64,000 bases of DNA from NCBI GenBank assembly GCA_037039685.1, contig JAWNGF010000003.1, positions 1,984,001 to 2,048,000 on the forward strand, in the 5' to 3' direction. This DNA is from Ceratobasidium sp. AG-K (Eukaryota > Basidiomycota > Agaricomycetes > Cantharellales > Ceratobasidiaceae). Shown here piece after piece: positions 11,038 to 62,062 of the stretch. The notes under the pieces were generated by a model. That model was not told the origin of the DNA, made no database searches, and worked only from the letters and a program-made list of their open reading frames with translations. How positions within the stretch are numbered: position 1 is the stretch's first letter; the number at the start of each line of letters is the position of its first letter. The position numbers and the translations under genes are program-made.

Positions 11038-11042
11038 CTCAC

Positions 11043-16149: not shown

Positions 16150-16151
16150 TT

Positions 16152-16163: not shown

Positions 16164-16205
16164 CTTAGTACGCTGAGCCACGAGAAAGCAAGGTCACGTG
16201 ACCAG

Positions 16206-18377: not shown

Positions 18378-18394
18378 ATGGGCATCTCTCCACC

Positions 18395-22879: not shown

Positions 22880-22962
22880 ACGAGCTCCTCGAGACGGACA
22901 TGCAAAACCTGGCGGAACGTGTTGGCTGGCTGGAATTGAAGGAGTGGGTCGCCCGCAGATAG
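21904..22962 (+). CDS. third ORF (ORF3) of element C, function unknown
   Basis: 352 codons from ATG 21904 (context ACAATGG, a strong start) to TAG 22960-22962, in the -1 frame relative to pol and overlapping its tail for about 975 nt. No signal peptide or membrane segment. A middle block (LIHPQLG, LLWV, then HCRGC-x4-V-x2-VV) matches the corresponding block of the element B ORF3. The C-terminal 100 residues form a Gln/Glu/Trp-rich coiled coil. More GC-rich than the rest of the element and uninterrupted, although gag and pol are each broken. I know of no family for it. A particle, chromatin or host-defence role would be a guess. Confidence 0.75.
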   Translation: MAPIRSNNTAAAARRASYRLSAAYSKAIMAGGPGEFAINCRATAPWSLKEARKLANDLEPGVHLGYISLAKRGDLKWDEEGKSLIHPQLGSLLWVSHPDARPSDPTDIGRSKYYHCRGCVGLTVHDVVIKSADAWNRDTGYKWEGDSWFKRETDPRIALANGGHIDDDGIWWSDCSYDFTSGWPTPCEWQKKPEPPVADNTYPETPLSDFDWSKGADEDAERIEREWNAAWDRARENVEALIADVGQAIAKLEPRPPADRMPCDANVLEAYRLVQSGSWSIDQLNKWLDHRQEQWALHEQQELERLQQRHQEELDKLYQEKWDRMNELLETDMQNLAERVGWLELKEWVARR

Positions 22963-27221: not shown

Positions 27222-27904
27222 TTACAAATTAAGATATTTATTGGCTTGCTCCATGAGACTCACAAGTGTGCAAAACAGCAGCCTCAGCTTCAAGTACTGA
27301 CAACCTACTATGCATGTGTGGGTTTGTAATCTCCATCATTGTTCAGTACACTATTTGCAAACCATTTACACTAAGTGACAAGCTAGCAGTTACAGCAAAA
27401 GTGCCCTACTAGCCTTCATCAATAGTGCTGTGGGGCGGGTCTCCTCAAAATTCGGTAGCTTTCAAGTTGTTGAGTTGTCGATTCTCAACACGTGCGTGTG
27501 TATCCCACCCCCGCCCCGCGCCTCCATTGCAGCTATTTTCTAGTTGCAATAGAAACTGCTCAACTGGGTCGTTTATGGAACCCCTAGATTACCCCGCATA
27601 CAGCCACTGGTGGACTTCAAAATCGTTTGAGAAGCCGTAAGCGTGCTCATCATGGAACCAATGCGGAACCTCGGCCACGTGTGGTGCCCCGATGTCACTG
27701 GTAGAATCAAGGCATAGAGAACTTGCAAATAAGCGCAAGCCGAATCAGTATATCGGAGGATCTGAGACGGATCCAGCAAAAGGGCACAACGAGAGAAATG
27801 AGTTCATGCGGTGGCAATATCCGACTGCTGGCAGTGGTTAAATTGAGTGGAACGACCGTTCGAATTCAACCACCACAACCATTCCGTCTCGGTATCACCA
27901 CGAA
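27222..27904. other. intergenic region upstream of BTB copy 3
   Basis: No gene. Contains the upstream repeat (27657-27775) that also occurs at 13870-13983. CpG content rises sharply from about 27.43 kb rightwards, marking the edge of the decayed, transposon-rich block. Confidence 0.55.
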
Positions 27905-29024
27905 ATGTCCGACATAGAGCTAGTATCTGCATGTGACTGCGACTCTCCATTCTCAGACGGCCAAAGCAATATCGAGATATTTGAAACCACACACGTTTAC
28001 AGCGATGGAAATCTACAACTGGACGTGAGGGGTACACGATTCAAAGTTCACCAATGTCGGTACTTCAGATCCACGTAGAACAGAGACACTTATATTTAAT
28101 ACACAACCCCCTTAGCTATACTTGCTATGCACTCGGAAACCTTCCGCGACATGTTTGGTTTACCCCAAGCACAGTCAATGACTCGGACACAGGATGAACC
28201 CATCGCACTAGATGATTCCCCCCAAGCGTTTGACCAACTAATGAACTCCGTTTACAAAGGCATGTGAGTGTGTTTACGATTGTCGTGTTATACGATCTCA
28301 AAGTATGATATTCAACCGCATGTTATTCAGTGAATTCATTCGAGGTGCCCCGATTCGCGATCACCTTGGCGTTATCGAGCTCGCTCAAAAGTATCAGATG
28401 CACGCCATCGAGACTCAACTTCAACAACACATATCGACCCTACTCCCCGCTTGCCCCAGTGCCCCCGTGCTTACGTCCGAGCGATTTCTGCCCTACCAAC
28501 GAGACCACTCTCTGCCGCGAGCCGTCTTGCGCTTCGGCGCTCCAGAGCTTCGGCCGTGGGCATTCTACGCTCTGGCTGTACCAATGATCTCGGGCATCGA
28601 TCTAGCAAACAAGTCGACATACGATCTTCCATCATTACTGGCCCCCTTTGGTACCTCGTTTGCGTATGAACTACTCGTGCTCCTACGACTTATTCAAGAC
28701 ACTCCCCTGAAATGGTGCCGGCGGATCAGCGAATTCTATTCAACCAGCTGCCCTCAAGCCTTTCCTGACTGTCCTCGAACTGCGCGGAGATTCGATAGTT
28801 CATCTCCTTTGTTTATACCATCGGATCCCATGCGCGTTGCAATTCTATCGCCGATGGTAGGAAAGATCAAGAGTCTCACCAAGCATATGGAGGGTGACCA
28901 CGAGCATGGAGGGTGGTGCAACAAATGCAAGCGCGATCTAAAGAAGATTCCCAACGATGTTATTCACGAGCTTCACGGCAGCCTAGTCGAGTGTGCGGCG
29001 AGGCTGGATTATTCCCGGTTTTGA
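27905..29024 (+). CDS. BTB/POZ domain protein (intact copy 3)
   Basis: Three exons, 27905-28055, 28116-28263 and 28331-29024, with GT-AG introns of 60 and 67 nt, giving 330 residues. The first exon junction produces FKVHQSILA-x-HSE-x-FRDMFG, the classic opening of a BTB/POZ fold, a protein-protein interaction domain often used in cullin-3 ligase adaptors and transcription regulators. The C-terminal part is specific to this small family: EFYSTSCPQ, a FDSSSPLF block and a W-C-x-K-C motif near residue 300 that might bind metal. It is the right-hand member of a tandem triplication whose other copies are decayed. No partner can be named from sequence. Confidence 0.85.
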
Positions 29025-42141: not shown

Positions 42142-44208
42142 ATGTGTCCAATGATTCTCACTTTGTTGACCGCCCTTCCTCTTGTCGCGTCAGAGCCATC
42201 ACATCATGCGCTCGTCCCGCCTCAGCTTCTCAGTCAGGGGATTTTTCAAAACCATGGGACCATCATCGTAAACCATTACCCGAACCCTACTTCCCTGCTT
42301 GATCGAGAGGCTCCGAACTCCAGCTCAGGACCCGGATGGGGTGATATCGTGGCATTTGTCGTCTTCATACTCTACGCTGGGAAGCTTTGGCACCAGTCAC
42401 AATTCCCGGCGAGTCATGATCTCACGCGGCGCGCCTGCCCTTTGCGCTGCCCGGGTCGCCGTCACACCGTGGAGACTGGCGAACCTAGGACTGGTAGGTG
42501 ATTGTATCGTCTGTAAGGATGGCTAGTTCATTAGAAATACTCCAGACCACTTGACCCTGCCTCCCCGTGACCGCGCCGGTACTCCGAACAGTGGTCATCC
42601 GGTGAATCCTCGAGGGCGAACCTCAGCTGCTGCGGTTGCTTCCGCCGGGCCCACTTCGTACAATGTGCTATATGGTAAGTTGCCTTTACCGACGGCTTGG
42701 TGACGGGCTTGGCTAATTTTTTCTCGTTCTCAGATCAGGCCGTGTTGATCGAGGAGCCGGAGCACGACCTGGCTCACACAATTGACTTGACAAATACACA
42801 AAGTATATACAGTTTGGAGGGGATGTCTACACCTGTTTGCCCAACGCTTATGCACGTTATGTAGGTCCTACGAAACCCGAGTTTCCTCCGTCGTGGGACA
42901 CGCCCGCCTACGATGAAACCGCACTGTCCCCATCCGAACCACCCACTGACCCACCGAATATTTCAACGAATGTGTCTTATATACCCTGGGCGTCTGCAGA
43001 TAGGAAAACCAACAGTGTGCCCACTCCGGGCAATTCTCCTGGCAGCAAGGTCATTTTGTACCAACCGCGGCATCTCAGTTTACCCTTCGAGGACGGACGC
43101 CAACGTAGCCCGCCCAACGTAAAGAAGAGCACTCCGCTACAAACAGCTCTATACACTGGATCAGCGAGTCTTTCGATAGCGTGGTATTTCCTTGTTATTG
43201 CGGTGAACTACGATGGGGTTGAGGATCCAGAGAACGACCTACCGCTATTTCGAGATTTGCTCACACAACCCGGCGCACAGCCCCTAGATATTCATTTCGA
43301 GTCGCTCGTTGGGTCCGAAGCTACGATTCTCAGCATAACAACCAAGCTGGTCGCGATCTATCTGGAAGCCGCACGCAATACTAGTGACTCTCGGGTCCTG
43401 GTGCTGCTCAGCGGCTCGGGTAACGACGATAACCAAATGTGCCTCTCAAACGGAGAGGTCATTACGGAGAAGATTTTACGCAACTTACTAGTCAAGGTAC
43501 ACATGAAATCGAACGTTACTGACATAGAACCAGCACTTTTTGTAGTTGATATTTGCCGCCCTAATCGGAGCAAGCTCAGCATCCCCAGCTGCCATGTGGT
43601 GAATATGATTTGGGCCTGCTCTCCAGGCCAACGGGGATACGGCGTCGGGTTAGGAAATTTGCCCAACTCGGTTTTTCTCTTGGCCCTTTGCTGGGCAGCC
43701 TCGGATCTCCCTCAAGGTGTCCCCTCGAACTCCTGCCAAACATTCAACTTCGAGCAAGTGTTCAGGCGTCGGGTTAGGCAATTGGACAGGCTTATTCTCA
43801 GTTGTCACAACTATTGGCACTATGTTGAGCCTTCGTGTGAGCAGTGCGCGAGCCCAGTCGCGCGATGCGATCCACCTGAGCCACAAGTTCCCGAAGGCGA
43901 AAGGCCCGGGGTAAGTCGATTGGCTCCTGCATGGAGTAGTCTTATCACTAATACTTACTTCCAACCTTGTAGTGGGACACGCTCATGGGTCTAGCCGAGC
44001 TGATTATGAAAAGATCACGTGAACGTGTGCTTGAAATCGTGGATGCGTTGACGGATGCCATTCGGGAATGTAGTGAATGGGAACGGCGCAACGTACGTTT
44101 ACTTCCAACTGCCCACGCCCACGTCGCTGACACCACCCATTCCAGACTATTTCCGCCAAGCAAAACCCTCGAGGTGCTACAATGCCGATGTCCCAAGGCG
44201 CTGCCTAG
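42142..44208 (+). CDS. P1: membrane-anchored caspase-like protein without catalytic His
   Basis: Six exons, 42142-42493, 42546-42674, 42734-42802, 42865-43910, 43973-44092, 44146-44208, give 592 residues; intron phases 1,1,1,0,0. N-terminal signal peptide (MILTLLTALPLVASEP), short ectodomain with N-x-S/T sites, TM near residues 70-87, a disordered juxtamembrane region, then a caspase-like fold from about residue 289: strand FLVIAVNY, SGSGN at the place of SGHG (His replaced by Ser, about 364), MCL, and the D-x-C element DICRP (Cys about 413), then CSPGQ. Near 499-516 is an H-x5-C-x2-C-x6-C motif. The family resembles fungal peptidase C14/metacaspase-like domains, but the missing His argues against ordinary protease activity. 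Role unknown. Confidence 0.82.
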
Positions 44209-44787
44209 ATTTTGCCTTGACGTGAGCCACCATGACCAAGGCCGTTCTGCTGATTTTTTCCCTAGTATCCGACGTTATGTTTCCCTCACTCGTTATGCAG
44301 CGTTACAGCCTGTTTTGAAATCTCACCATATGCGCGCTCATGCGTCCGTACTTATAGCAATTTATAAAAGTACATGCCAGCACTGAACCCATCAATGTAC
44401 CTACATGAGAGTGCTCTCGCTTGAGGCCATATGTGTTCAAACACGGTGCCTCACGATCCACTATGTTCATACTTTGCCCCCACTCGCTGTTTATGAAATA
44501 TACGATAAAGTTACATCCCGCGCGCATGATTGACCGGCGTGTATTCGCAAGTAATTTGTGATATCAAGCCCCAAAGGACACTCACCCGAATAAGCTATAT
44601 TCATGTCTCAAAAGGGGTTACCCTATGCATTTTCGGCTCCAGACTTTGAATATAATATTTCATAGATACATGCGCATATGTAGCCGAGACCGTTGATTGT
44701 GTGCATAATAGATAATTGATAAACGAAGAGGTGTTATGAATAACCAGATGCAAATAGATTTCGGGCGGGTTACGCCCCCAGCGTGCA
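44209..44787. other. convergent intergenic region P1/P2
   Basis: A/T-rich 3' flanks of two convergent genes. No feature recognised. Confidence 0.45.
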
Positions 44788-46855
44788 CTAAACTTTCACG
44801 CAGAGCACGGGTTGCGTCGCGCCTCGCTCGATTAGATTAGTATGCGGGCCAGCAACCTTGCGACGCAGGTCAGAGGGTACGTTAGAAACGCTCTGAGGGT
44901 AGGGTTAGTATATTGTACGCAGCGACCTTCAACGAACGTAACTTACGCTGCTTGTTTCCAAAACACGAAACAGCACCATCTTACGGCTCATTATGCTAAC
45001 AATTTCTTGCACAGAATCGGGACACGCTACCACAATATCCTGTCCAAAGATACCGAGAGTATCCCACTGCGTGAAAGTCGTTAAATCAATCAAGAAAATG
45101 AATTAACAGGAGATCGCTTACCCCTGCTGACTCCCCCTCGGGAGTTTGTTCTTTGGGTGGGTCACATTTCTGACCCTGATCTGTGCATTGTTTGCATGTA
45201 TCGGCGCGCTCGTGTATGCGGTCATGTACGCGCGACACGAGCCCTCCCAGCTGCTTCATTCGATGCTTGAATGCGGCTTCAAAGTTCATGGGACCAGGAG
45301 GAGCCGGGCCGTACAGGTCATATGATGCAAGGAAGAAGGCTAGGAGGAAACATGACCAGGGTACAGATTTGAATGCAAGGACGTGCGCTAGTTGACCAGG
45401 AGAGCAAGACCGAACGAGTTTTGTTTGGTTCGAGCTCACATCCGCAGGTTTGATTAGGCGTTTACCAGGGCGGCAAACGTCAGCAAGGATAAGGGACGAG
45501 ATATCCGGAGTATTCCATTGCGCGTGTATCTCCGAAATCCAGGGTTGGAAGTCGTTATCGGAGATAAACTCCTGGTTCAATAAGCACATCTGCTCTGCCT
45601 CGTCTCCTAGGCCAGAGAGGAATACCAATATCCTACAGCTGTTGGAAGCGCATCCAGCCTTCAGGTACAGCGACGTGAATACTGTCTTTATTTTATTACG
45701 AGTAGCATCGGACCCGCTGACAGATTCAAGATGAATGGTTGCGAGTGCTGCACTGGACTGGCGAAGAATTTGCTCGAGAAGGGCAAGGTCGTGTTCTGGG
45801 TCCCGCACGTGACCATTATTGACCCCAATGAAAAGAACAAACCACTTGATCCCGGGCAGCAAGGAGAACCTGCTGAAGGAACCAAATAATGCTGCCTTCA
45901 GCGGAACTTGTCGAGCTGAACGCAGGACTCGGCGTTCGTTGCCATGATCGTTGCACAAACTTTTGTAACGAAGTCGAGTCGGGCTATTTGTGGGTGGAGG
46001 TAGAGCATGAATGTGCGCCGTAATAGGGGTTGTACTGCTTGCGGATAAACAGCGGATTCTGGTTTGGGGGGATGCCTGAACCAAGGCGGACCGGTTCCGA
46101 GGTGAGTTGGCCACAGCTTTTTGTCAAAACAAGTATAAGCAAATTGAGTCGCTTTTCTCTTGTTGACACGCACATTTTGCTTCAGCATGGTCCTGTTCAC
46201 TTCTAGCACGTCTTGGCGGCAAGGGAGTTCGTGTATTGCATACACCTAAATATTTAGTGTAATATTTGAGATTATGTGGCGATACAACTATTGACTCGAT
46301 ACCCTTACCGGGAAGTGCACTGCGAGGCGAAGGAAAGCTGTCAGTAGCTATTGCCGTAGCAGAGTTCCGGCCCCGCTCATTCGGCGATTGAATATAATCC
46401 TTGTGTCGAACATCAACTACATTGAATGAGAAGAGGGTAGGATGGAAATCTAACTAAGCCAGACTCAAGCAAACAGGGTGAGAATGGTACTGACCAGCAC
46501 TCGACGCAGTCTGCAAAGATAAAACTGGCCTATTGCGTTTCGGTGTAGAGCGTAAAAGACGTGCACTCTTGGTTTGATTCACAGAAGCTCGAGTCGAGAA
46601 TCCGCGGGATTTGATCAATACATAAATCGGGAGTGCGACTGTAATCACAATCCACCAATTGTCGAGTTGGTTATATGCGCGTTGGTAGCCAGAGGAAACG
46701 TCTAGCATCTCTCGACCGGGCTTTGTAGGATCGTCGCCACCACCGTGAACGGCGAGCCTCTGGCATTCTTCAAGTCCCTGGGAGGAAAGTAAACACGCCG
46801 TAGCCGCGATTTCGGGTGGCGCGAAGAGCAGATTCATGGTAGCAGAAAATGCCAT
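44788..46855 (-). CDS. P2: membrane-anchored caspase-like protein without catalytic His
   Basis: Six exons on the minus strand: 46855-46495, 46416-46309, 46245-46174, 46116-45122, 45066-44947, 44892-44788, giving 586 residues with the same intron phases as P1. The start may be 46855 or 46837, both in frame. Hydrophobic N-terminus, ectodomain, TM (WWIVITVALPIYVLI), then RGR-rich linker exons and the caspase-like core: VLFIGVNN, SGLGD in place of SGHG (His to Leu), MCL, DVCRP, CSPGQ, then H-x5-C-x2-C-x6-C (IHERADTCKQC). Exon 5 is exactly 120 nt, as in P1, P3 and P5. Convergent with P1. Confidence 0.82.
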
Positions 46856-47508
46856 ATGTAGTGGTTTATTGGAGAACAACCGCGGGTGCATCCTAAGGCT
46901 TTTGCCCCCGCCTCGAGGCAGGGGGGTGAAGCAACGTGGTTTACCCCACGTGTGGCCACTGACTAAGCAGAGACAGATGTGTTGTTTAACATGCTTGTTC
47001 CAATGTTTGGGCGTATTGTAACGTTTTCGTGTGCTCGAACCCTCAAGGACCCGTTCCCCCCGGTCACCGAAAAATGAGGAGGCTGGACGGAGCGCGGACG
47101 GTGCACGAGCTGACAAGAGAGTTATAGTAAATAAATTAGTATAAGAGCGGGCCTTGCTCGAAGAAGTCACCTCCCGCAGAATCCGTCAGTACAGAGCTCG
47201 CCTAACTCGAACTCGGAGTCGGCATTGGATGTTAGGGATAAGCTAACAGCCAGAAGGGGCGGTTGGTTGTGGGTAAAGGGCGAGAAATCGGCAAGCGCAC
47301 TAGGGAAAGTACCGAGAAAAGCGGGCGTGTTCCAGTCTGAGAATGGGCCGAGACCATACTGTTGTAGTCAGCCGAAGCAAGCGTCAAGCATAAGGGATCG
47401 AGAGAGATGTGAGGAACTGGGTGGCGGATGGCATGTAATGGCAAGTGATTCAGATCCCGTTCGAGCACAACGATGGGTGGTGGTATATGCCATAGCTTGT
47501 GAGTTCTC
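46856..47508. other. upstream region of P2
   Basis: No gene. A block at about 46868-46965 (GTTTATTG, CCTCGAGGCAG, CCCCACGT) recurs at about 48900-48985, so part of this promoter region has been duplicated. Confidence 0.45.
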
Positions 47509-47795
47509 ACATCAAGAAGACGGGACAACGCAACGGCAAGCTGATTGGTAAAGAGTACGCACGCGAGGTTTCCGAGGCACTTGCCCAGAAGATGGAGCAA
47601 AAAGAGGCTTTTCAACCAGAAAGGTGAGTCTAGAACTAGTGTTGAACGAGTTCAAACTGATAATTCGCGACATTTCAGAAGGATTCGCACTTACCCTCCA
47701 GCCCGAACCAAGTAGCCTTCGTTCGGGAAGCCCGACCCACATGGCGCTTACGTGGTGCGAACCAACGAGCCTCCCAAACGATGCGGCACACGGGC
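47509..47795 (+). pseudogene. relic R1: last two exons of a P4-like gene
   Basis: Aligns with P4 exons 5-6 and the intron between them: REVSEALAQKM before GTGAGT, then a TTTCAG acceptor and the C-terminal exon with SSVREAR-like coding. The similarity continues into the 3' flank (47795-48180 matches 55207-55600). The upstream exons, including the caspase-like core, are missing, so it is a leftover of a tandem duplication. Confidence 0.65.
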
Positions 47796-49627
47796 TGACC
47801 TAGCAACCTATCTCGTTTTGTTACGTTTCTCTGGGAGCTTTCAGCAAGATTGCAGTGTGTTACAGTAAACTAGATATAAAAACAAATTTGCTTCCGTTGA
47901 CTCTAGAAATGAACCCGTTGTGTATTCACAAGCACCAGCCCGTCCTGCTTGAGTCAGAAACAGCGTCCGCCTCTGCTGTGCGTGTGGGCCCTGATTGGTA
48001 GTGAGCAGGAGTGTGTCTCCGGGAGGGCAAGTACGGTATTTGCCATGACAGTTAGCATTAGTGACGCTTGAATATCGTCGGGTGGTAAAGGGAGGAATTG
48101 CCACCAACGAACTCAGGCTATTTACGTTTGTCAGACGATTTCTGGCCGCCGTAACCACACTGGGCCCGCTCCGTTATGTCCGTTTATTTAGCTCGATCGA
48201 TTCAAATTGGCAGATCGCCCGATGAGGCTGAAAAAGCTCCCGATATATTGTCCGTTATTTATGTTATTGTAAACGTATCTTAGTCAGGCGTTATCCTCGG
48301 TGAGGGTACCTCGGGCTGGCAACGCGTTATTCTCGCTTTCAGTCGCACCAAGCCGCTTATCTGAGCCTCGTGTATGTTTCCAGCATCTTACGCGTTTATC
48401 TCAAACCTCTCACCTACACCTGCATGCACACTGCGTGAAATGTCAGAAACATAGGGTGGACAAGTATTGATCTTAAATGCGTTCACTCTGCCCGCAGAAG
48501 ACTCAGTTTCTAGTCGTCCCTTATACAACCGCATGTCTAGAAATAGATACATTAAGCTTACCTGGGGACCAAGCCTTCCACATCTAGTCGCACGTGATTC
48601 TGCCTTTGAGCATTTGAAATTGAGCACTGGCGGAATCACGGCTAGAAGGCTTGGTATAACCTGGCATGCCTCCACCGAAAGCCAAAATTCTCGTTCGGCT
48701 TGTAAGGTCTCGTGATGCCAGGACCTTTCTCCTGGGTCTCCAGAGCACTCGGGGTGGCTCGTAAGCGCTCAGGAGATAAACGAGATTTTCGGCTTTTGGT
48801 AGAGTGTAGAGGGCCGTGCCTCGCGCGGCCCGCGTCACCACGACGAAATAGTAAATACATATCGCTCAATATACAAAGTTTGGATTTTCGACCTCTGTAT
48901 TTCGGTTTATTGAGGAAGAGGATTGAAGCTTTCGCTCGCCTTGTCTCCGGCCTCGAGGCAGATAGCAAAACGTGTTTGTCCCACGTTGTGTAACCAAACA
49001 GGAACAAATTGATACCCCCATGTACTACCTACCTCACCATCCTTCTGGCATTGGCACTCGAACCAGCCGATTGTTCGTTAGATCTGATAGCCTTCTAAGC
49101 TCAGCTGTTGGCAAGTAAAGTAGTTTTAGAATGAATGTGCGCGCATGTATGTAGCAATTCTGTTACAGGCGTAGCGATCAGCGAAGTAGTTTAATTAGCA
49201 TATCACGAGGGGGCTAATGGGGATGGAGCCCCTCGAATATACTGGCGCCCATATCTCTGGGTGTATGTGCACGTGAATTAGACAGTGTTGTCAATATGGC
49301 CAACTCGGGCCGGAATAGGTATCTCTCTTGCTTTTCAGCGTCCCCCTGACTATTCACATTAGCCTCGTGCAGCTTCCCGGCACCATCTCACACGTCTGCC
49401 TCAAACGTCTCACCCTGTCCACATGTAAACCGGTGGGCAAGTCTGAAACAGGGATTGGCAAGCACAACTCTTAAATACGTTCGTCTCGCTCGCAGCTCGG
49501 CTCGGTTTCTAGCCCTCCTTGATATATTCGCAGAGATCCAACAAGCAGCTTAACAGAACATAGACACAACTACTTCTTGTCCCCAATTTCCCTACCCCTC
49601 CGCTTATTCAACCGGGTCAACGGCGCT
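47796..49627. other. duplicated spacer with relic R3
   Basis: Contains recognisable duplicates but no full gene. 47796-48480 aligns with 55208-56110. A block ending in CTCRGTTTCTAGYCCTCC-like sequence occurs three times (about 48380-48560, 49370-49530, 55985-56170). On the minus strand, about 48700-48985 resembles the start and promoter of a P2-like gene (relic R3). The array has clearly grown by segmental duplication and loss. Confidence 0.5.
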
Positions 49628-51717
49628 TCAGTCTCCAACAATGTTCCTCGGACTCGCGGACTCGGCTTGTGACACGGGTAGTAAAGCACCCCGAGGATGT
49701 GATGTCACGGCGCTTGCATGATGAACAATAGGAGCCGATTGAGAACTTTGAGGCGCGGACGGAGTGCTCTGCAACATGTTAGTCTTCCCATAGTACCCTC
49801 AGTATCAACCACCAAACTCACAATGTTATCGACCCAAAGCCCACTCGCTCGCATGTTCTGCATAATGGTGTCGACAATAACGCGCACGGCGCCGGGATTG
49901 TTGGTCATAATGAACATACCGAGCCGGTAGAGATCGGCGAACTAAACAAACAACAAAAGTGTAAGCACGTTGAATCCAGCTTCGTCAAAGGAATGACACT
50001 CACGCCAGCATACCCTTCAAGTGTTTGGAGCCCAGGGTGATCACATAGTACTCCACTCTCGACGCAATCATCGCATCTCCCGACCACGGCGTGGTCGTAG
50101 TCGTAGATCCATAATCTGTACTTGCTTACATGACCCAGCCAGCTTCTCATTGAATTCTCAAACTCTGCGGGAGTAGGGGGGCCATCGTTCGCAGCCAGGA
50201 AAAAGGCCAGGTAGAAGCACGATCTGGAAACATGCTTTGACTTGAATTCTATTGCTTGCGCGAACTGGCAAGGCGAACATGATCGGATTAGGTTGACCAT
50301 ATCCCCAGCGTTAAAGCTCGGTATGTTGCTCTCCCTACAAATATCGATTATGATTGTCGGGGTCTGAGCGCCACGCAGGTTGAACCGTTTGCGAATGGTT
50401 GACATCCACTTGTGGATATCGTCCCCTTCGAGGGATGCTTCCTCTGGTAAGCACATCCGGTTATGTTCATTGCCCCGGCCGGTCAGGAATACGAGCAACC
50501 TAGCACGGTTGAGAAAGGCTAGCAGATAAAGCCAGATAAACCAGCGCCTAATAGTTTCGACCGTCAAGTCATCGTCAGCAAGAGGCGAGAACCGCATGGT
50601 GGGATCGGCGACGGGTCGATGGAGGATGCCCTGAAAGACTCCGAGGTCATGTTTTGGGTCTTTAAGCCCGTCGTCTACGGCCACGAACAAGACGGAGAGA
50701 TTGCCCGTGTCCTGTGCGGAAAGATCTTTCGAACCGGTGCTTAGCGACTTATTCAATCCCTCGGTCTCGATCGGGTGTGGTAGAGGTATATCGGTTCCCC
50801 AGGCCAAGGTCTGGGATCGTGGTTGGAGGGTCGTGACGAGGCGGTTTGGATTGGGAAGACTTCTGGAACGCGAGGCTACGGCGGTCGACACGGGACGGCG
50901 GGTCTGCGAAGGATTCGATGGCAGATTTCCGGGTGGTTGGATCCAACGGGAGGTTATGCTAGTCAGAAGGTTCTTGAGGAACAGCAGCACTAAGATGACA
51001 ATCGCTGGGACTGGACAACGAACAATGAGAAGCTGGGACATTGATAGCACAACCCGTGCACTCGTACCTTCGATGGGTGAAATGCCATCTCCAGGATTGG
51101 GGTCGTATTCCTCGGTCACCGGGGGTAAAATGGCCTGCTCTGGAGGATTCCGTGAATACCAGCAGGTCGAAATATTCTTCGATAGGACTCACCCTGTAGA
51201 GCGCTACGACGGGATGGATTGTTGTCGAAAGCTGACGCCGTAGTTGATGACTTTCCCCGATACTTTGCTACATGGGGTGCGTCATCAATTTCTCCTAGCG
51301 GAGGTTGACATAGGGGAGCTGAGGGTTTCCTGTTAACTAATGCATTTGAACGCCAGGAAAATCGCACCTACCATCATCTAGTATTGGTGTGCCGGCCAAT
51401 ACCGAGTAGCTGCGCCTTGGGGCATGGGGCAAAGGATGGCTCTGTGACGCTCGCCACTCGTGTCCACACCATTTACCAAACGAAAAAACGGCAAGAACGG
51501 TCGCGGCAGGGGTAAAAATCGTCCAGATGTAGATAAGCGTGAGTTGGCGGTCGTGGAGAAGACGTGGTATGTGTAGGACGCATTCTATGTTCGTGTCGAC
51601 GTAGACGGACGATGCTGAAATCTTTATAAGGATTTCGGATGGTAGTGCATGGCTAAGGGCGAGTATGAAGATCGTGGTCAAAAGAAACCAAATCTTGACG
51701 TGTGTAAACGTAGACAT
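49628..51717 (-). CDS. P3: membrane-anchored caspase-like protein without catalytic His
   Basis: Six exons on the minus strand: 51717-51372, 51318-51193, 51139-51068, 50989-50004, 49941-49822, 49768-49628, giving 596 residues; intron phases 1,1,1,0,0. Signal peptide (IWFLLTTIFILALSHALP), ectodomain of about 50 residues, TM (LIYIWTIFTPAATVLAVF). Caspase-like core: VLFVAVDDG, TGRGN for SGHG (His to Arg), MCL, DICRE, CSPCQ; then H-x5-C-x2-C-x6-C (DHAVVGRCDDC). The Ser/Pro-rich C-terminal exon closely parallels that of P5, so the two are recent relatives. The start of exon 4 (50989) is the least certain boundary. Confidence 0.82.
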
Positions 51718-53037
51718 CGGGGTTTGGAAACATAACAGTTGGTGGTCACAGATACTGATGTCGTCAAAGGCGGGAGATGAGGCCACCAGCCCTCTCGGTC
51801 GCTCTGCTTTATAGGCCAATTATTCCTTTACATGCAGGATGGCCTGACGGGAAACTGGGCGGTGCCGGATCGGCCCATCGCTTTTCTCGGACATTTCAGT
51901 CAGGTACGGTAACGAAAGAAGCTGCAAAAACGGGATCCCACCATAAAATTACGACTTCCCCACCATAACCTTACCCTTACAGAAAGGTTATTCGCCTTCG
52001 TATGTATGTTAGCCCACCTACGACAAGCTCTCGTCTGCACCCACAACTATTTTTCGACGCGCTTCTCCACGTCACGCTGAGACCGCGTTTGCTTCCGGCC
52101 TCGCGACGCACTGCATTGATGTGCCTGCCAGACACCCCCAGCTTTTCTATTTTGCCGGTCGGCCCCAGCACCTACGCAAGCACACCGTGCCGAGGCAGTC
52201 CCTGCATATACCCTCGTTGATTTGTGGATCATTGTTCCTCACGAAGATCCCAAAGTCAAAAGGTTTTTTCGTGAAGCGGCTGTAGCTGGCGCGCGGCGGA
52301 CCCGGGCTTCAACAAGGTCAGTTGGCTTTTCATTTATAGAATTTGGAGATATCACGTATATTCACTATCGCGTTATTGTACCAATTGCGATCTCTTAGGT
52401 GTCATTCTTCCACGCCCCTCCTCCCTGGATCGAATTCGGGGATGCCCATTGCGCTCTCTGACTGATGACGGAACGGATACATGCGGACCTACGATCATCC
52501 ACTACGTTCATTTGCTCATTGCCCCAGCTATTGCCGCGCGTCTCCCTGCGGTATGCTGCGAGTGTGTATTGCTTCCCGCGCGTCACCACATCCCGGCGCG
52601 AACAATTACTCCGTCGTGTTTCTGCATGGATCTTCTAGAGTCGCCCACGCGGTTGGCAAGGCCTGGAAGCGCCAATCGGTTGAACTCAAGGATACGTCCT
52701 TCGTCAGGCGGAAATTCCCGCAAGAGATTCTGGCCAAATCATGAATACTATAGCCCATTTCGACAAAGACCGAAGCTTCGTGTCTGCAGAGTCGCCCACA
52801 CCCTATGAGTCAGCATCCCATGACACGAATCCAGTTGGTCATTCTTCCATCAGCAGACAATACGGCTATCATATAGGTCCAGTGCTTTTTGACGGGGGGG
52901 TGATATTGGGAGGATAGCCGAGCTACTCAGGCGAGAAGCCCGTGTACCTTAAAATTCGGGGTCGTTTTCATGGAGAACATATAAGGTGAATGCCGCTGCA
53001 CGGGCTCTTCGTTCGCTATCCCGCAGTCCCACTCGCA
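51718..53037. other. divergent intergenic region P3/P4, duplicated at 58.7 kb
   Basis: No full gene. From about 51995 to P4 exon 1 it aligns with 58730-59742, with matching blocks such as the CGACGCG-type start and GATCGAATYCGGG. The copy at 58.7 kb lies between P5 and relic R2, so the two regions are the same promoter segment duplicated. Confidence 0.55.
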
Positions 53038-55207
53038 ATGCCCACGACCACAGATGTAGTTTCTTCCCTCGTCGGTGCGGATCACGTTACGGAGATCTGC
53101 ATAACGACGTCACTTGCCCTTGACGTGCACCATGTTGCCATGGAGAGCGTCAAGTTAACAGTCAATGTCGTATGCCAACCCTCTACCGGCCTCGGTTCTC
53201 GCTTCAACCATTTCGTACTCCTCGCCCTCTGGTATGGCTGTTGGATCGGCTTTGCATTCGTGCTTCATATTTTCGTCGGCCGCTATTGGCCCCGATCTCG
53301 AAACGGAGCTGGGAAAAGGCCCCGGAGCTGTCGATATCGGATTCCAACGGGGCAGGGTTGTACAGGAGTGAGTTGCCCGTCCATACAGGGAGAAGGTAGG
53401 TGCGATTCCTACCATTCACCGAAAAGTTGGGCTAACTCGATGCTCTAGATAGCTCACCGTTTCCCTTTGCAAACGTCGACGACGACACCCTCGCTGATGT
53501 TTCGAGCACACCCAATGGGAGGGGTCGTCGGTCTGCTACCGTCGGTAGCAGCGTTATGCTGTCTCGTTTTAACCCTTTGGCCGGCGAGTTTTTTCACAAT
53601 AAAGGTTGACGTTGCGCTGAAGCACGTCTTACCTTGAACAGACCAAGCTGACACCCAGAACTCTTTGACGATCAACGAGAGCGACGCTCCTACTACAAAT
53701 TCACACGGTATGTTTGATCGATAGTCCCATCGGCGGAGTAATAAAACTCCGGCCCTTCTTTCCTTCTCCAGGCCATTTGACATCTCAAACTCTATCGAAT
53801 CGGCCCCCATCGACTTCTTTGATACAGCCGGGCGATCCTGTAACCCCTCGCCCCGGCGTTGCATCTCCAAACACCGGCAAAAGACGTACATATCTCTCAG
53901 GGCCTGTTCGTTCCCAAAGTCGCCGGCGAGCACACCAGAATGCAATCCTGGACGTTTTCGAGCCTCGATTAGCTGAGCCTATTCCCCTGTTGGCGACGCT
54001 CCTCGCCTGGACCACCCTACCTACACCACCTGCGAGTAGTTCGAGCGTGTTTGAGCCCAGGCCGGCTGATCCAACCAGGAGTACACCATTACTCGCGGCC
54101 TTGTATCCCCGACTTGGCCACCTCACGGTAGCTTCTCGGACCAAGTGGTTTATACTCGTCATCGCAGTGACTTGCAAGGAGCACGAAGTAATAGACCCCA
54201 AGTTCGATCTCGCTTTTCTCCGAAAGGTGTTCGGCCAATCCAAGTCCACGAACGTCCGCTTTGAATGTTTGGCCGAAGGGGACGCTACTCTCGAAAACAT
54301 CCGGGCCAAGCTTGAATCCCTCTACTGCGAAGCTCGGGAAACCCACGGTCCATTTCGGTTGTGCATCTACCTTACTGGCATAGGAGACGGCGATAGCAAG
54401 ATGTGCCTCCTTGGCGGCGAGGTCGTCAGTGAACAAGAGTTGGGAGGTTGGACACTAGGCCTACAAGATCAATCGACCGGCAGCCGATACTCAAACTCTA
54501 TAAGCGCAATATTGGACTTCTGCCGTGAGGCAATGAAGCAACGGGACTTGATGGACGATAGGCTAGGCCTTGTTTGGTCATCTTCGATTGGTGAACCACC
54601 GTCTGCAAATGCTTACTCTCTTGGTGATGGCCTGCCAATGTCTTGCTTTCTTATTGCCCTTTTTTCGGTTGCAAACAATATCACTACTGGCTCCAACGCA
54701 TTCGGGGAAGCAATTAAACTACAGCTTGAACAAATCGGGGACTTCTTGCGCTTTTGTTACGACAAGCAGCATGAAACCAATGGACAATGTGAACGCTGCA
54801 AGGCTCAAGGGGAGAATTGTCTTCTGCTTGCACTGCAGGTGCCCGAGTGGGATTCGGCCGGAGTGAGTGGCTCGTAGTGCATCAACCTTCCAATCCTAAC
54901 TTGACCCTTCAGCTCGACATGCTTACCGCCCTAGCAGAGCTTATCAAGGCCGAGTATTCTGAGTATGCACTTGAGGTTTCCGAAGCGCTCGCCCGGGAAA
55001 TGGGAGAACAAGGCTTTCTGGCTAGAAGTGTAGGTCTGGAACTAATGTTGAGCGACTTCAAATTAATAATTCGCAATGTTTCAGAACGACTGTCATTTGC
55101 CCTCTGGCTCGAAGCAAGCATCCTCCGTTCGGGAAGCTCGAGCTTCGACGCCACACTTTCGTGGTGCAAATGAGCGAACCTCCCAAATAGTGGAGCACAT
55201 GGGTTGA
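53038..55207 (+). CDS. P4: membrane-anchored caspase-like protein without catalytic His
   Basis: Six exons, 53038-53395, 53449-53604, 53642-53707, 53772-54862, 54913-55029, 55085-55207, give 636 residues; intron phases 1,1,1,0,0. The start at 53038 is chosen by alignment with relic R2; an in-frame ATG at 52990 is possible and would add 16 residues. The ectodomain (VKLTVNVVCQPS) is unlike those of P1-P3. TM near FVLLALWYGCWIGFAFVLHIF. Core: WFILVIAVT, TGIGD for SGHG (His to Ile), MCL, DFCRE; the CSPGQ block is diverged to SSSIGE. Then H-x5-C-x2-C-x6-C (QHETNGQCERC). The most divergent member in the core. Confidence 0.82.
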
Positions 55208-56261
55208 CCTCATAAACTCTCTCGTTTGTTATATTCCTCCAGAGGCCGCCAATAGGATCATAATGTGTTACGGTAAACTAAATATAAAAACGACTTTTGC
55301 TTTCGTTTAGCTAGAAATGTGCGGATGTAAATTTAAATCTGGCGTGTATTCACAAGCGCTAGTCGGTCCTGCTTATGCTGAAAAGAACGTCCGTCTCTGC
55401 TGTGTGCACGCGGGCTGTGATTTGTGCCAGTGCCGTTCGGATCCATTTTGGGCCCCTGATTGATGGTGAGTAGGGGTGTAGCTCCTGGGGGGACAACTTG
55501 GAGTACGATATTCACTATATATGGAAGTCAGTATTGGTGGCGCCTGGACATCGCTCTCTGACTGGTACTCTTCTGATAGTGGTGAATCCTAGGATGAGGG
55601 TCATGGTGTGGCCTCCTAATTAAAGCGCGATGCTTTTGAATGAAGAGCGTGAGTTGAGGCTCGCAGTAACGGCGTTCGTTATTGTATGTGTGCTAATTCG
55701 CGAGATAAACAGAATAATTGCAACCGGCAAACTAATTATGTTTGTTTATACAAAGTCTGGCCGCCAAGCTCATCCTAAGTCCACTCCGTCATATCCGTTA
55801 TATTTGGCTATGCCGCTCAATTAGTTGAAATTGGCAGATCGTCCCAAGGCACAGAGCAGTCTGGAAAGCTCCCAATATATTGTTCGTTATTTATGTTATT
55901 GTAAACATGGGCTAGTTAGGCGTTCTTGTCGGCGAAGCTACCTCAGGCTGGGAACGACGTGATCTCGCTTTCCCGCGGCACCCAGTCGCTCAACTTAGCC
56001 TCGTGTATTTTCAGTATCTCACGCATTGATCTCAAACGTCTCACATAAGTCCGCATGCAAACCACATGTAATGTCAGAAACACGGGGTTGATGAACAAAA
56101 GTCTTAAATGCTTTCGCTTCACCTGCAGCGCGACTCAGTTTCTAGTCCTCCTCAACACAATCGCGTGTCTGAAGTACATACAACAAGTGGATTCACGGAA
56201 CATAGCCATCCCCTCCCCAACTTCTTTACCCCTTGGCGTATTTCACAGGATCAACGGCGCC
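55208..56261. other. convergent spacer P4/P5, duplicated at 47.8 kb
   Basis: No gene. Aligns in order with 47796-48560, including a motif ATATAAAAACRA near 55283. It marks the second copy of the duplicated unit. Confidence 0.5.
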
Positions 56262-58375
56262 TCACGCCTCGACGATGATACTCGGAGACTCGGCCTGTAC
56301 CATCAACGGTGCGGCACCCCGCGAATGCTGTGCTGCCGCGCTTGAATTCTGCACAATAGGGGTTGATTGGGGGGTTTGAGACATGGAGGCTCGCTGCAGA
56401 ACATAAGCTTCCAAAAGTGCTCCCGACACTCGCCAGACTTACGTTTCTCCGGCTCCAAAGCTCAATATCCTTCTCCTCTTTGTGAAAGCGATTAACGATA
56501 TCGCACATGGGGCCAGGGTGTTTCGTTGCTATGAACACACCAAGTTCATGGAGGTCGGACCACTAGTTGGTCCAAGGAGCATCAGGATATGGAATCTCGA
56601 CGTATCACAGAAGCAGTACGTACCCCGTCGTCCCCTGGTTCAAGGGTTTGAGGTTCGGGTTGGTCACACGTCGAATCGTTCGTACAGTCCTTACAGTCCC
56701 CCGGGTTGGCGTGCCAAATTTCATGGATCTGCGCTCTGAGCTTGCCTACTTGACCCAACCAGTACACGAGCGCCTTCTTGAATGCGTTTGGACTAGGAGG
56801 GCGGTCATTCGCCGCAAGGAAAAAGGAGAGGTAGAAGCACGACCTGGATATGTTTTTGGGCACAAAACCTATGGCTTGTGCAAGTTCGCCAGGTGAGCAC
56901 GACCGGATCAGGTTAGCCAGGCCCCCAGCGTTGAAACTCGCCAGGACCTGTTGCCTACACACGTCGAGTATAATTGTGGGGATCTGAGCGCCGGGAAGGC
57001 GCACGGTTGATAGCCAGTCGAAAATATCTTTCTCGGCGAGAAACGCATCGCCCGGCAAGCACATTCCGCCCTCGGCGCCTCGACCGGCTAGGAACACCAG
57101 CAATCTGGAGCGGGTAATAAAAGCCAACAAATAGAGCCGAATAAATCGTCGTCTGATGGTGTCAAGCGTCACATCGTTTCCGGCAAGTGAAGAGAAGGGG
57201 ATAATGGCGGGGTCGTTGACGGGCTGGTGGAGGATAGTCCGAAAAACACCGAGGTCGTGATCTGGGTCTCCCAGTCCGTCGTCCGCGGCGACGAAAAGGA
57301 CGGAGAGGTTGTCGGCAGGCGGAGCGGAAAGGTCTGCTGGGCCGGTGTACAACGACTTGTGCAACGTCAACGGCGTGATTTCGGTTGGATTGGGCGGAGA
57401 CGGTTCGGGTTCGACATCATGAAATAACGTGTTGTATCGTGCCTGAAGGCGGGTGGCTACGACGAGGAGCCTCGGATCGGGCACGCTCCGCGATCGTCCG
57501 GGTCCAACCGTTGCACAAGGGTGGCAGGTTTGCGGCGGATTGGATAGTGGGTTGTCGAGAACCTCGTACCACCGAGTAATAATCAAGGGCAAATCGTCGT
57601 TGTGGGACAAGGATGGTTCAGCTGCAACTAGCGCCGGATACCGTATCAGTGAGAAGTCAAGGCATGGACACAAAGGGTTATTTACATATCACTTGAGCAG
57701 CCAGAGTGGTATTGCAACATCCGGATTCGAGATATCGATCGGAAGCTGCGATCGATGATGAGCGTGAAACGGCACCTGCTAGGGGAAGCCGATGAATACG
57801 GGTGAGCCGAAAGATATCCGAACGTGACTTACTCTGCAGCACGTTACGACGGGATGAAGCACCGTCGGAAGCCGATGCCATAGCGAGGGACTTTCCCTTA
57901 TTACTGAACGGCTGGGGACAATCGTTATGTGCGTCATTGGTCATTTCCTGGGCTGGTTGGCGGGAGTCGGCTAAGATTTTTCGATTAACAAGAGCTGGAC
58001 AACAGAAAGATACCACCTACGGTTGACGCAGGCTGGTTCGCCAACCGAGCCGGAGTGGTTGCACCCAGGGCGCGCGATCCATCCCTGCGACACCTGCTCC
58101 CCTTGTCTACGCCATGTAGCAAACAGAAAAGCGACGAAAAAAACGACCGCAACCAGAATAAGAATGCACCAAGTGCGAAACTGTACGCGTTGACTGTCGG
58201 TAGGGGCATGTAGTAGTTGTAGGTCATAAGTATTGTCCTTGCCGACGTAACTGGCTGACGTCAGATTCCGTACAGGGAGTCTGGACGGCAGAGCGTGGGC
58301 AGGGATGAGTAGTCTGGTCGTGGTCAAGAGCAACCCAATGGCCAGTCCGACGTGGGCGTTCAAATTTATAAACAT
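56262..58375 (-). CDS. P5: membrane-anchored caspase-like protein without catalytic His
   Basis: Six exons on the minus strand: 58375-58021, 57970-57833, 57775-57686, 57627-56624, 56562-56443, 56393-56262, giving 612 residues with phases 1,1,1,0,0. Exon 3 could start 3 nt earlier. Signal peptide (VGLAIGLLLTTTRLLIPAHALP), ectodomain, TM (WCILILVAVVFFVAFLF). Core: VLFVAADDG, AGRGA for SGHG (His to Arg), MCL, DVCRQ, CSPGE; then H-x5-C-x2-C-x5-C (WHANPGDCKDC). Closest to P3. The P3 and P5 pair sits in two copies of a duplicated unit. Confidence 0.82.
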
Positions 58376-59742
58376 CAAAGATAGAGCCGGGTAGGGGGGC
58401 TTCAAAGTGGTGAGGATGCCGTCACCTCCTGCCGTCGATCCTTATGTGGAATCCCCATCGCAGAGGGATTTCTTTTCGAACGTCAACTGCGGTGCCCGCC
58501 AAGCGGTTTTATTCCTGGCTTTTGAGTCAAATACCCAAGAAACCAAATGTCTTGGGTATCCCACCGATCGCGAGACCGTGACTCTGGACGCGTGACGCTC
58601 ACCTGCACGTGAGTTGCCCGCTCTCTCTCTCTCATGATCAAAAAACTTGGTAAATTAAACTCAAGGTGACGTTGTGTTTATAATATTTTGCTTTACTTCA
58701 TGCCTTACACTTTGTTATGGGAATCACAGGCTGGTGTATGTATCCCACCCGCCCACGACGAGCTCTTGTCTAGGTCTCAACTACATTTTCGACGCCACGA
58801 TGTCAACGCGTTTTGCCTTCTGCACTGTGTTGACGCGCCTGCCAATCCTTACGCCGCCCATCCATCCGTCAGGCCAAAATCGCCGGGCACGTTGGTTCAA
58901 TGATGGATCATCTGTTTCTCAAGGAGATCCAGAAGTCGAAACGCTTTATGACGGAGCCGTGGATGCGCCACAGAACCTGGCTTCGACAAACTCAGTCGGC
59001 TTTTCATTTGCGGAAAGTGCGAGCTGTTTAATAAATATCAATTATCGTGTTGCCTTTACGATTTGCGATATTTCGGACATCATCCTCCACGCTCGACGGT
59101 CAATCTCAACCAGATCGAATCCGGGCATGCCCTTTGCGCTCTCCTAACGTGGCGCGGGGATGGTACACACGGGGTCATGCGATGCTCGTGGCTCCACCTG
59201 GCGGCGGGTTTCGCGGTGACTGTGTGACTGTGACTGCGAGTGCTATTGCCCTTTACCCATCAGCGCACCTCGGTGCCGGCCGTGTGCGTTTCTGCCCAGG
59301 TCTTCTAAGATCTTTCACTCGGCCAGCGAAGCCTGGAAACGCCAATCGAATGGGGATCAACCCAAAGTTGTGTCTCAGAGGCGGGACTCCCACGACAAAT
59401 TTTGCCTAGATTGTGGGTGATCCATTTCGACAAAGACCCAAAGCTCTGTGCCAACGGAGCCGCTGATGCCCCACGAGCTCAGCTTCTCATGAATCCAGCT
59501 GTTCTCTCATTTCATCCGCAAGCAATGACGCAATCATGCGATGTTCGTATGCTAGGTGCGCAAACTACAGTTATCTGGGATCGTTTCAGCACCTCCGACA
59601 AGAGGTAACACCTGGGAGCCCAAGTTCTTTAGGCGAGAAGCCAAACTGTCCCAAAAGATCAAGACCGCTTCTGATCGAGTACATATGTGGAGGATTCTAT
59701 TGCGCCGCTCTTGTTAGCCATCCTCTGCGGCCCTCACTTGCC
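58376..59742. other. divergent intergenic region P5/R2
   Basis: No full gene. 58730-59742 is the duplicate of about 51995-53037. It serves as upstream region for relic R2 as the other copy does for P4. Confidence 0.55.
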
Positions 59743-60087
59743 ATGTCCTCGCCGATTAATATTGAAATTTCTTCCCTTGTCGAATTAATGCCCCTCGTCC
59801 CCGGCATACGCCAACTTATTGTGGAGAAAGTCAAACTAGCTGTCAATGTTGTATGCCAACCTTCCACGCCCGAAGTGATCCAAGGCGACCTGGATTCTCG
59901 CTCCAACCACCACACCCTACTCATCCTCTGGTATGCTTATTGGGCTGCCGTTGCACTTGGGCTTCATATTCTGGTCAGCCGCTGTTGGCCTCACTCCCGA
60001 AACGGAAGCAGGATCGCATCCCAAAGTTATCCGTACCGGATATCCAATTTGAATAACACGCGGAAGCTCCCTAGTCTTGCATTATAA
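59743..60087 (+). CDS. R2: truncated P4-like protein, ectodomain and TM only
   Basis: One exon of 114 codons from ATG 59743, aligned with P4 exon 1 over its whole length (VKLAVNVVCQPS, LILWYAYWAAVALGLHIL, PHSRNGS). It stops at TAA just where P4 would splice into exon 2. The rest of the gene is absent; P6 starts its 3' end at 60241 on the other strand. It is either a dead remnant of the duplication or a small membrane protein keeping only the ectodomain and TM, which could act as a decoy or regulator. The reading frame is clean. Confidence 0.5.
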   Translation: MSSPINIEISSLVELMPLVPGIRQLIVEKVKLAVNVVCQPSTPEVIQGDLDSRSNHHTLLILWYAYWAAVALGLHILVSRCWPHSRNGSRIASQSYPYRISNLNNTRKLPSLAL

Positions 60088-60240
60088 TCATTGTCATTAG
60101 TTACTGTTATTATAGTGATGTAGGCTCTAATGTAAAATTCATCTAAGTGCGTCTAGCATAAAGAGTGTGGAATATGAAAGAATGTTGTTTGGTAGAAGCT
60201 CTGCCCAATTACACCTGGATTATGGGCTGGATAACTGTGT

Positions 60241-62062
60241 CTACGCCTGGAATACGCAATGGCTTGCACCCCGCATATGCCGCGCTGTGTGGCCTGTATG
60301 TTGGGCAGACGGCGGATCCTGAAAATTAGAATGTCAACAAACTTATGCTCCGCTAACATCGATAGATCAACTCACAGTAGCCACAGCGAACTTGCACAGC
60401 TTCATTTCTTCGAGAAACAAAGCATCAATCTTGACGGCTGAATTGCAATAGTTTTTCGCAATAAACGTGGCCAACTGGCGGATATCCTCCCACTAGATAA
60501 CAAAACAACATTAGTGGACAAACGCCAACAAACCAAACGACACCCACCCCTGCTCGTGATCCGTCAGGTACCTGCAGCCCGGGTCGAGCGCACTTTCCTT
60601 CTGGCTCATTGCTACAATATTTGCAGATCCCTGATCCTATGTGCCACTCCGTGTGGCTGTACAACAAGTACCTCCCCAACTCGTCCAACTGGCATTGAAA
60701 CGCTGCTTCAAACTCTGCAAAGCCAGCGCCGGCACTCTTGCACGCCCGAAACAACGCGAGCCAGAAGCACGACCTGGGTATAGCTGGGTCCTCGAATTCA
60801 ATTGCATAAGAACGTTGTCCGAGGGAGCAAGACCAAACCAAGTTAGCTACACCACCGGGGCTCGCACTCGGGGAGTCCTTGCTCTCACGACAGATGTCGG
60901 TAACAATCGTGACGGGTTTGGAGTGTAGCAATCCGAGTCGCGTACGTGTGGTCGATAGCCAATTGCAAAGGTCATCTTCCGAGATGGATACGTTGTTGGA
61001 AAGGCACATTCGATTGGTGGAGTTGCCTTGACCAGATAAAAATACGAGCATTTTGGATCCTGTCAAAGTCGCCCGCAGGTCCAGCCAGAGCAGCCAGCCT
61101 TTGATATTGCTAAGGGTGACGTCGGCGCCAGTCAGTGACGTGAAGCGAATGGCCACATTCTCAGTGCTAGGCGCTTGGAGCGCAGTCTTGAAGGCCTTGG
61201 CATCGTGTTCCGGGTCTTCTTCGCCGTGGTTGACCCCGACAAAAAATACAGATAGTTGTTCCGTGGGTGGTGCAACGGAATCTTCCGGTTCTTCAGTGGA
61301 CGACGCAAGCAGATAGGTTTTATCCGATGGTGACAAAAACCCATCGCCCTCGTGCAATAAACTTTGGTACCGCGATTGAATCCGACTCGCTTTGGTGTCA
61401 TAGAGCGTCGGAATGGGGATGCTCTTGCCTCGCTCAACGGCTATGACGCGGCGGGTCCTTGTCGGGATTGGAGGGGCTTCTACTTCAACCCAGCGAGGGA
61501 ATGTTTGAACCAGAGAAAAAAGCGTCCTCTGGCATCGTCCCGAATCATGTACGTGTTCGGCTCCCATCGCATCAAGGCCATCTTCTGGAACCGCAGGTGC
61601 CTGAGTGACGGCCCAGCCTGCGAAAGCGCCAAATTAACAGGTTGATTCGGGAATGGTACCAATCCCAACTTACTGCACCCGTTCGGACCAAACGTCCCTT
61701 GGTTGGAAACCGCAGCCAAGGTGAACGTCCTACCCCGAGTGCGGTGCTGCAACGTTGGCATCCCTCGCCCCACCCAAGTTTGGAACGATAGTCGATAGCA
61801 CTTGATACCAATCGCAAACGCAATGATCGTCCACCAAACACACCAGGGAATGAATATGGGCTGGTGCGTAGGGAGTGCTGCTGGGGTTGGATTCCCTGTA
61901 CAGTTGTCGGCAAGGAGTGCAGGTTTTGTCGCAAGAGGATTAGACAGAAATGGCTTTCCGGATGTGTACAGCTGACCGGCAGACGAGAAAGAGTGTGATA
62001 GTACAACAACCCAGAACCAGGCTTGGGGGGGGGGCAATGGAACTTGATGCGTTGGCCTCCAT
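60241..62062 (-). CDS. P6: membrane-anchored caspase-like protein, start affected by C10 tract
   Basis: Four exons on the minus strand: 62062-61674, 61617-60548, 60492-60376, 60318-60241, about 550 residues. The linker exons 2-3 of the others are fused to the core exon. Signal-like stretch (WFWVVVLSHSFSSAG), ectodomain, TM (WCVWWTIIAFAIGI). Core: VFFVGVNHG, SGQGN for SGHG (His to Gln), MCL, DICRE, CSLGQ; then H-x5-C-x2-C-x7-C (WHIGSGICKYC). The only in-frame start, ATG at 62062, needs nine C residues in the tract at 62025-62034, but ten are present. Either a homopolymer error, a null allele or a slippage-prone switch. The frame is otherwise intact. Confidence 0.75.

Follow-up and report, generated by a model that had tools for sequence, protein, structure and literature searches.

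Predicted membrane-anchored caspase-fold proteins of a Ceratobasidium gene array: loss of the catalytic histidine with the cysteine kept

Do the six paralogous genes that occupy the right third of the window (the whole stretch of DNA analysed here, a 64 kb piece of contig C3 in the 53.6 Mb, 17-contig assembly of Ceratobasidium sp. AG-K) encode peptidases? The genes, called P1(+), P2(-), P3(-), P4(+), P5(-) and P6(-) in their order along the contig, were recognised by their homologous cores, both as long reading frames and in alignment, and an earlier note made from the sequence had rightly placed six caspase-like paralogs here in both orientations. It had also likened them to fungal peptidase C14/metacaspases, and as peptidases the six are doubtful. 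Where the G-H-G motif has its histidine, P1 to P6 carry S, L, R, I, R and Q, respectively, between the glycines, and histidine was found there in none of the six. The catalytic cysteine is present in all six as D-x-C-R, and not as the metacaspase nucleophile motif D-x-C-H-S-G (P1 SGSG/DICR, P2 SGLG/DVCR, P3 TGRG/DICR, P4 TGIG/DFCR, P5 AGRG/DVCR, P6 SGQG/DICR); motifs of the D-x-C-H-S type are present elsewhere in the genome. Both sites are located as follows in P5:

57080..57082, minus strand: codon at the place of the catalytic histidine (arginine between two invariant glycines), position 182 in the first sequence of alignment A1
56957..56959, minus strand: catalytic-type cysteine in the invariant D-x-C-R, position 223 in the first sequence of alignment A1

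Because the catalytic histidine is absent in all of them, P1 to P6 in their present form probably do not work as peptidases and, by this residue, are most likely pseudocaspases.

The array has nine members rather than the six first described, since P7, P8 and P9 lie beyond the window (C3:2110132-2116708, with second copies at C2:1361503-1368081). P7 (C3 about 2110.1-2111.1 kb) has methionine at the histidine place and keeps the cysteine. P8 and P9, next after it, keep the His-Cys dyad (AGHG/DFCR and TGHG/DFCR), and a genome search with the related protein P0001 gave, among the matches listed, only these two besides His-less members. Five further His-less loci were found on contig C1, two pairs among them being close copies of each other. 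With second-copy duplicates and frame fragments not reaching the histidine or cysteine columns left out of the count, the cysteine was kept in 12 of 12 His-less cores and histidine was found in 0 of 12, six different residues standing in its place. The D-x-C-R motif, present in P1 to P9 and in the C1 loci, was invariant in 10/10 His-less cores aligned, and together with the flanking glycines in all 11 aligned sequences, His-less and dyad-bearing. In a tree of 15 rows, from which S2 was left out and in which the outgroup S1 forms a very long branch, the 12 His-less cores made up one side (support 81/91); this one-sided grouping is therefore compatible with a single loss of the histidine, though it does not prove it. 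The homology of the family, the loss of histidine with the cysteine kept, and the clustering of His-less with dyad-bearing members are shown at the level of sequence.

The six core exons (318-363 amino acids) are 26-55% identical to that of P5, share 29 invariant columns and score 264-291 bits against a profile built from those same cores. The caspase-like fold proposed for them was borne out by structure prediction and structural matching of P5 and P2, both models being of low confidence. All 18 Foldseek matches at E <= 0.001 to these coarse models were caspases, and among the matches listed for each of the two models 50 of 50 were clan CD enzymes; TM-scores did not exceed 0.51, and the pTM of the P2 model was 0.58. 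As modelled for P5 and P2, the core of the array proteins has the caspase-hemoglobinase fold of clan CD. The P5 sequence gave no match in PDB at E <= 1. In Pfam, P1 (23.5 bits) was the only one of the six to pass the cut-off of 21.4 for the C14 family (PF00656), with P2 (20) and P6 (19.4) slightly below it and P3 to P5 without a match; 6 of 11 family members matched at E <= 0.1, P8 scoring 38.5 bits. No second Pfam family, such as the Ig-like domains that stand beside the caspase domain in paracaspases, was found in the core frames scanned. Many other PF00656 matches occur on C1 (about 302-355 kb and 6602-6660 kb), C15, C6 and C12; several of the frames read have the histidine, and the C1 set is present twice in the same order. 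His-bearing caspase genes of other types were found elsewhere in the genome.

How these domains are held in the cell can be predicted in part. The receptor-like build proposed in the earlier note is supported as a predicted layout, with the reservation that the transmembrane segments of P1 to P4 were not distinguished from shuffled letters. A hydrophobic segment of transmembrane strength was found in exon 1 of P1 to P5 and of the C2 copy of P6. Against 2000 same-letter shuffles, P5 (p 0) and the transmembrane frame of P6 (p 0.035) stood out, and P1 (0.19), P2 (0.10), P3 (0.23) and P4 (0.07) did not; the transmembrane call therefore rests on position and relatives, not composition. P1 appears to begin with a signal-peptide-like N-terminus (by eye), followed by a short ectodomain, a transmembrane-like segment, a linker and the core. 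P3 has a signal-peptide-like start, ectodomain and transmembrane-like segment, and P4 has one transmembrane-like segment in exon 1 and no clear signal peptide. The models of P8 and P9 have a hydrophobic N-terminus, about 55 residues and then a strong transmembrane segment, so that their predicted layout (signal peptide, ectodomain, transmembrane segment, caspase domain, Cys cluster) is that of the window genes. The sequence A-L-P, read by eye after the hydrophobic N-terminus of P3, P5, P8 and P9, fits a cleavage site for signal peptides that these four would share. Signal peptide, transmembrane segment and the cytosolic side of the caspase domain are all predictions.

That ectodomains differ greatly while cores stay alignable, as the earlier note had it, was confirmed: all cores align, and just 3 of 36 N-terminal pairs were similar at shuffle p <= 0.01 (P3/P5, P4/orphan exon, and orphan/P6, the last weak and over 21 columns). 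Outer parts so barely alignable would suit recognition or incompatibility genes, in which these parts and the core differences of P6 and P7 would be kept by balancing or diversifying selection and cell death would follow when unlike variants clash, an explanation that we consider unlikely on the balance of the copy comparisons given below.

What might a mostly His-less family of this build do? Compared with PF00656 and fungal metacaspases, it shares the caspase-hemoglobinase fold and the catalytic-type cysteine, P8 and P9 also having G-H-G and D-F-C-R, but P1 to P7 lack the histidine, and a predicted signal peptide, ectodomain and transmembrane segment and a C-terminal Cys cluster are added. 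Fungal type I metacaspases are soluble, with a prodomain and calcium-dependent cleavage after Arg/Lys, whereas the array proteins have a predicted transmembrane segment and signal peptide. The GPI (glycosylphosphatidylinositol) transamidase catalytic subunit and legumain share the clan CD fold and are among the structural matches listed for P5. Their peptidase domain is lumenal or outside, before any transmembrane segment, unlike the array caspase domain, which follows the predicted one; by sequence profile the match to GPI transamidase was not significant (E 0.35 and up). Dyad variants are known among trypanosome metacaspases. cFLIP reaches its receptor, a separate protein, by way of death-effector domains, whereas an array protein is predicted to have transmembrane segment and ectodomain in its own chain; for the inactive forms we claim no common descent. 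We know of no fungal membrane receptor with a caspase domain in the same chain, and none was named in the titles and abstract openings among the literature matches listed.

In PMC10143347, the 301-residue Rhizoctonia solani metacaspase RS107_6 is described as having neither signal peptide nor transmembrane segment. Bacterial pseudo-orthocaspases are, according to PMC6426788, caspase homologues with lost dyad residues, most often with Tyr-Ser in place of His-Cys, and among the prokaryotic caspase homologues surveyed there pseudo-proteases seem confined to orthocaspases; the array family differs in losing only the histidine, in being fungal and in its predicted transmembrane segment. The precedent comes from animals, in which cFLIP-L, itself inactive, joins its homologue caspase-8 in an active heterodimer; the two caspase-fold proteins, one active and one inactive, are encoded next to each other in the genome (PMC11121540).

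By this analogy, the mechanism with the best support would be that the His-less members regulate their dyad-bearing neighbours or compete with them. The family would consist of proteins that cross the membrane once, with a short outer part that changes fast and, on the cytosolic side, a caspase-fold domain and then a Cys cluster. P8 and P9, having the dyad, would be possible proteases, and P1 to P7 with the five loci elsewhere most likely pseudocaspases acting without cutting. A signal from outside or from the cell wall might cluster the membrane proteins, upon which the cytosolic domains would pair, and His-less members, as partners or competitors of P8 and P9, would decide if the active ones act and on which targets, much as cFLIP does for caspase-8. 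We put forward this picture of a membrane-anchored caspase family with pseudocaspase partners tuning possible proteases as a tentative one, quite possible and short of probable; pairing, regulation and any part in cell death or recognition are what we infer from it. A bolder version, in which a logic like that of death receptor, caspase-8 and cFLIP evolved independently in fungi, with single-chain receptor-caspases at the cell surface, two of them active, and lineage-specific pseudocaspases tuning these two and diversifying between nuclei, possibly for self/non-self recognition, seems to us unlikely. If P8 and P9 are active and P1 to P7 bind them, surface caspase-type signalling would become testable in a fungus with natural inactive partners at hand; and the family offers a clear case of histidine loss with the cysteine kept in a caspase fold.

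Evidence on whether the His-less genes are maintained comes from contig C2 of the same assembly, where the array occurs a second time (identity 99.7% over 7.9 kb and 99.1% over 16.6 kb; for P7 to P9, C2 versus C3, 99.5% over 11.6 kb). A wholly doubled assembly was considered and tested with the TCP1/Cpn60 family, in which 3 of 10 chaperonin loci were doubled (hand count) and the others single. C2 and C3 may therefore carry two haplotypes that were both retained, or one may be a recent segmental copy of the other. On C2, open frames were found in P1, in P3 and in the core exons of P2, P4 and P6, and a broken one in P5; P8, the opposite of P5, has its open frame on C2 and its broken one on C3, and the last predicted exon of P7 differs by one base of length between copies. 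Synonymous to amino-acid changes between copies numbered 5:1 in P1, 2:1 in P2 (unsettled model) and 7:3 in P3 (14 and 5 when pooled), 1:4 in P4 exons 4-6 and 1:3 in its exon 1, 5:3 in P5 (its C2 copy also having a stop and a gapped codon), 14:28 in P6 exons 4-6, 1:13 in the P7 core exon, 5:13 in P8 and 2:1 in the P9 core exon. From these ratios, constraint is seen in P1 to P3 and not in P4 or P6 to P8, P9 having too few changes.

Part of this picture would be expected of decaying paralogs, duplicated from a dyad-bearing membrane caspase, deprived of the histidine and drifting without present function. The six different residues at the histidine place fit such decay, as do the breaks in P5 on C2 and P8 on C3, the out-of-frame exon 1 of P6 in its window copy, an orphan exon (59467-60087) and the amino-acid-rich copy differences in P4 and P6 to P8. 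Decay is nevertheless an unlikely account of the family, in which D-x-C-R and the C-x2-C...C cluster are invariant in 10/10 aligned His-less cores (R3, outside the alignment, lost one Cys), both copies have open frames in P1, in P3 and in the core exons of P2, P4 and P6, and P1 to P3 show the excess of synonymous changes just given; omega between paralogs was 0.18-0.38 in the 8 of 15 pairs for which it was computable, the other 7 being saturated.

The differences in P6 are concentrated in one block:

60398..60956, minus strand: stretch of P6 with far higher divergence between copies, mostly amino-acid changes

Within P6 60376-60492 and 60548-60931 synonymous to amino-acid changes stood at 8:28, versus 8:1 in the rest of the core exon (Fisher p 0.0004), and P8 exons 1-2 carry 13 differences in 593 bases versus 53 in 10000 overall. 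Together with the 13:1 excess of amino-acid changes in the P7 core exon and the open and broken alternatives of P5 and P8, these stretches point towards recognition genes. However, just two copies were compared, and these may represent a segmental duplication and not two nuclei; the limits of the P6 and P8 stretches were picked after the differences were known, so that their p values are optimistic; the P7 ratio was not significant versus a neutral one (p about 0.13, hand estimate); and the P6 block could derive from an unseen donor, although a donor or third copy was sought in this assembly and none was found.

Retention of the cysteine also leaves room for chemistry other than proteolysis. 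A conserved C-terminal cluster is located in P5 at:

56666..56713, minus strand: H-x5-C-x2-C-x5-C cluster, a possible metal site (H305, C311, C314 and C320 invariant in P1 to P6)

His-less members might then be enzymes or cofactor binders, in which the cysteine with a different base, or else a metal held by the cluster, would serve redox sensing or some non-proteolytic reaction. The cysteine kept in all 12 cores would agree with this, as would the three cluster cysteines, invariant in 11/11 aligned family members including dyad-bearing P8 and P9. By profile the cluster also matched the protein FeoC weakly (E 0.027), which falls short of significance and is to be taken as a lead only. The models are coarse, however, and R3 is without one of the three cysteines; we regard such chemistry as distinctly improbable and continue to prefer pseudocaspases regulating dyad-bearing partners.

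The dyad-bearing form has relatives in the protein database. Eight were found, five of them named R. solani (47-50% identity to P8), which by itself would make a Rhizoctonia-like basidiomycete the likely source of the DNA. All eight keep the dyad, P0005-P0008 looking like versions of one protein. The build of P8 and P9 recurs in P0001 (609 aa) and P0002 (553 aa); P0004 starts inside a hydrophobic segment, and five relatives have none before the core, some seemingly cut short. A His-less relative was sought with P5 itself (no match among the best 8000 word-sharing candidates scored) and with a profile of ten His-less cores (no match among the best 7995); neither result proves absence, but the same database did contain dyad-type R. 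solani members. The lack of a His-less relative among the candidates scored therefore suggests, by sequence, a lineage-specific His-less branch. Judged on titles and abstract openings among the matches listed, the literature gave no paper about basidiomycete transmembrane caspases, and by term search a study on effector domains of fungal NLRs (PMC9815663) had no passage with metacaspase, C14 or transmembrane.

Gene models, derived from splice signals and codon use alone, predict several introns per gene:

42142..44225, plus strand: P1; exons 42142-42493, 42546-42674, 42734-42802, 42865-43910, 43973-44072, 44146-44225; last intron uncertain
44788..46855, minus strand: P2; core exon 45122-46075, C-terminal exons 44947-45066 and 44788-44892, transmembrane-like segment in exon 46583-46855
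49628..51717, minus strand: P3; exons 51372-51717, 51193-51318, core 50004-51139, 49822-49941, 49628-49768
53038..55207, plus strand: P4; exons 53038-53395, 53449-53526, 53642-53707, 53772-54862, 54913-55029, 55085-55207
56262..58375, minus strand: P5; exons 58021-58375, 57833-57970, 57686-57745, 56624-57627, 56443-56562, 56262-56393
59467..60087, plus strand: orphan reading frame resembling P4 exon 1 (58% over 62 aa), no caspase core being seen behind it
60241..62062, minus strand: P6; core exon 60548-61617, exons 60376-60492 and 60241-60318; first exon out of frame in the window copy

The models reproduced the starts proposed earlier for P1 (42142) and P6 (62062). Whole frames with shared intron phases 1-1-1-0-0 were recovered for P5 and, with its first exon set by hand, P4, nearly so for P1 and P3, and not for P2 and P6. 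Models were satisfactory for P1, P3, P4 and P5 (591-622 aa, common intron phases). P5 is the cleanest (602 aa, 1-1-1-0-0). That of P4 (610 aa, 1-1-1-0-0) has its start at 53038 and splice sites set by hand, the modelling program favouring other first exons. P1 (591 aa) has phases 1-1-1-0 with the last intron modelled as phase 1, and P3 (622 aa) has 1-1-0-0 and a possible in-frame intron of 57 bases near the start of the core exon; this third intron may be optional, because its stretch is open and divisible by three. The N-terminal exons of P2 are unsettled (best model 547 aa). In P6, the frame from the ATG at 62062 meets a stop after 40 codons in the window copy, and a program model bridging the break by splicing has 498 aa; in the near-identical C2 copy the exon 1 frame stays open through the transmembrane segment. 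As one copy is a single base longer than the other at this place, in or next to a homopolymer of 9 bases, the break is possibly a sequencing fault.

The two copies also differ in arrangement: about 56 kb separates P6 from P7 on C3 (about 2049.2 to 2106.0 kb) versus <1 kb on C2, and C2 has about 3.1 kb extra between P2 and P3. Synteny breaks at about 39179 of the window, the left side matching C1 up to 1308.8 kb and the right side C2 from 1327.4 kb, which may be either a translocation between haplotypes or a joining fault; a repeat with 82-84% identical copies lies just right of the break. Elsewhere in the window, frames resembling Ty3/gypsy-type retroelements (gag, reverse transcriptase, integrase) were read by eye at 226-12400 and 16131-22900, and repeated BTB-like frames with a common H..WC.KC ending at 26505-29024 and 13106-13624.

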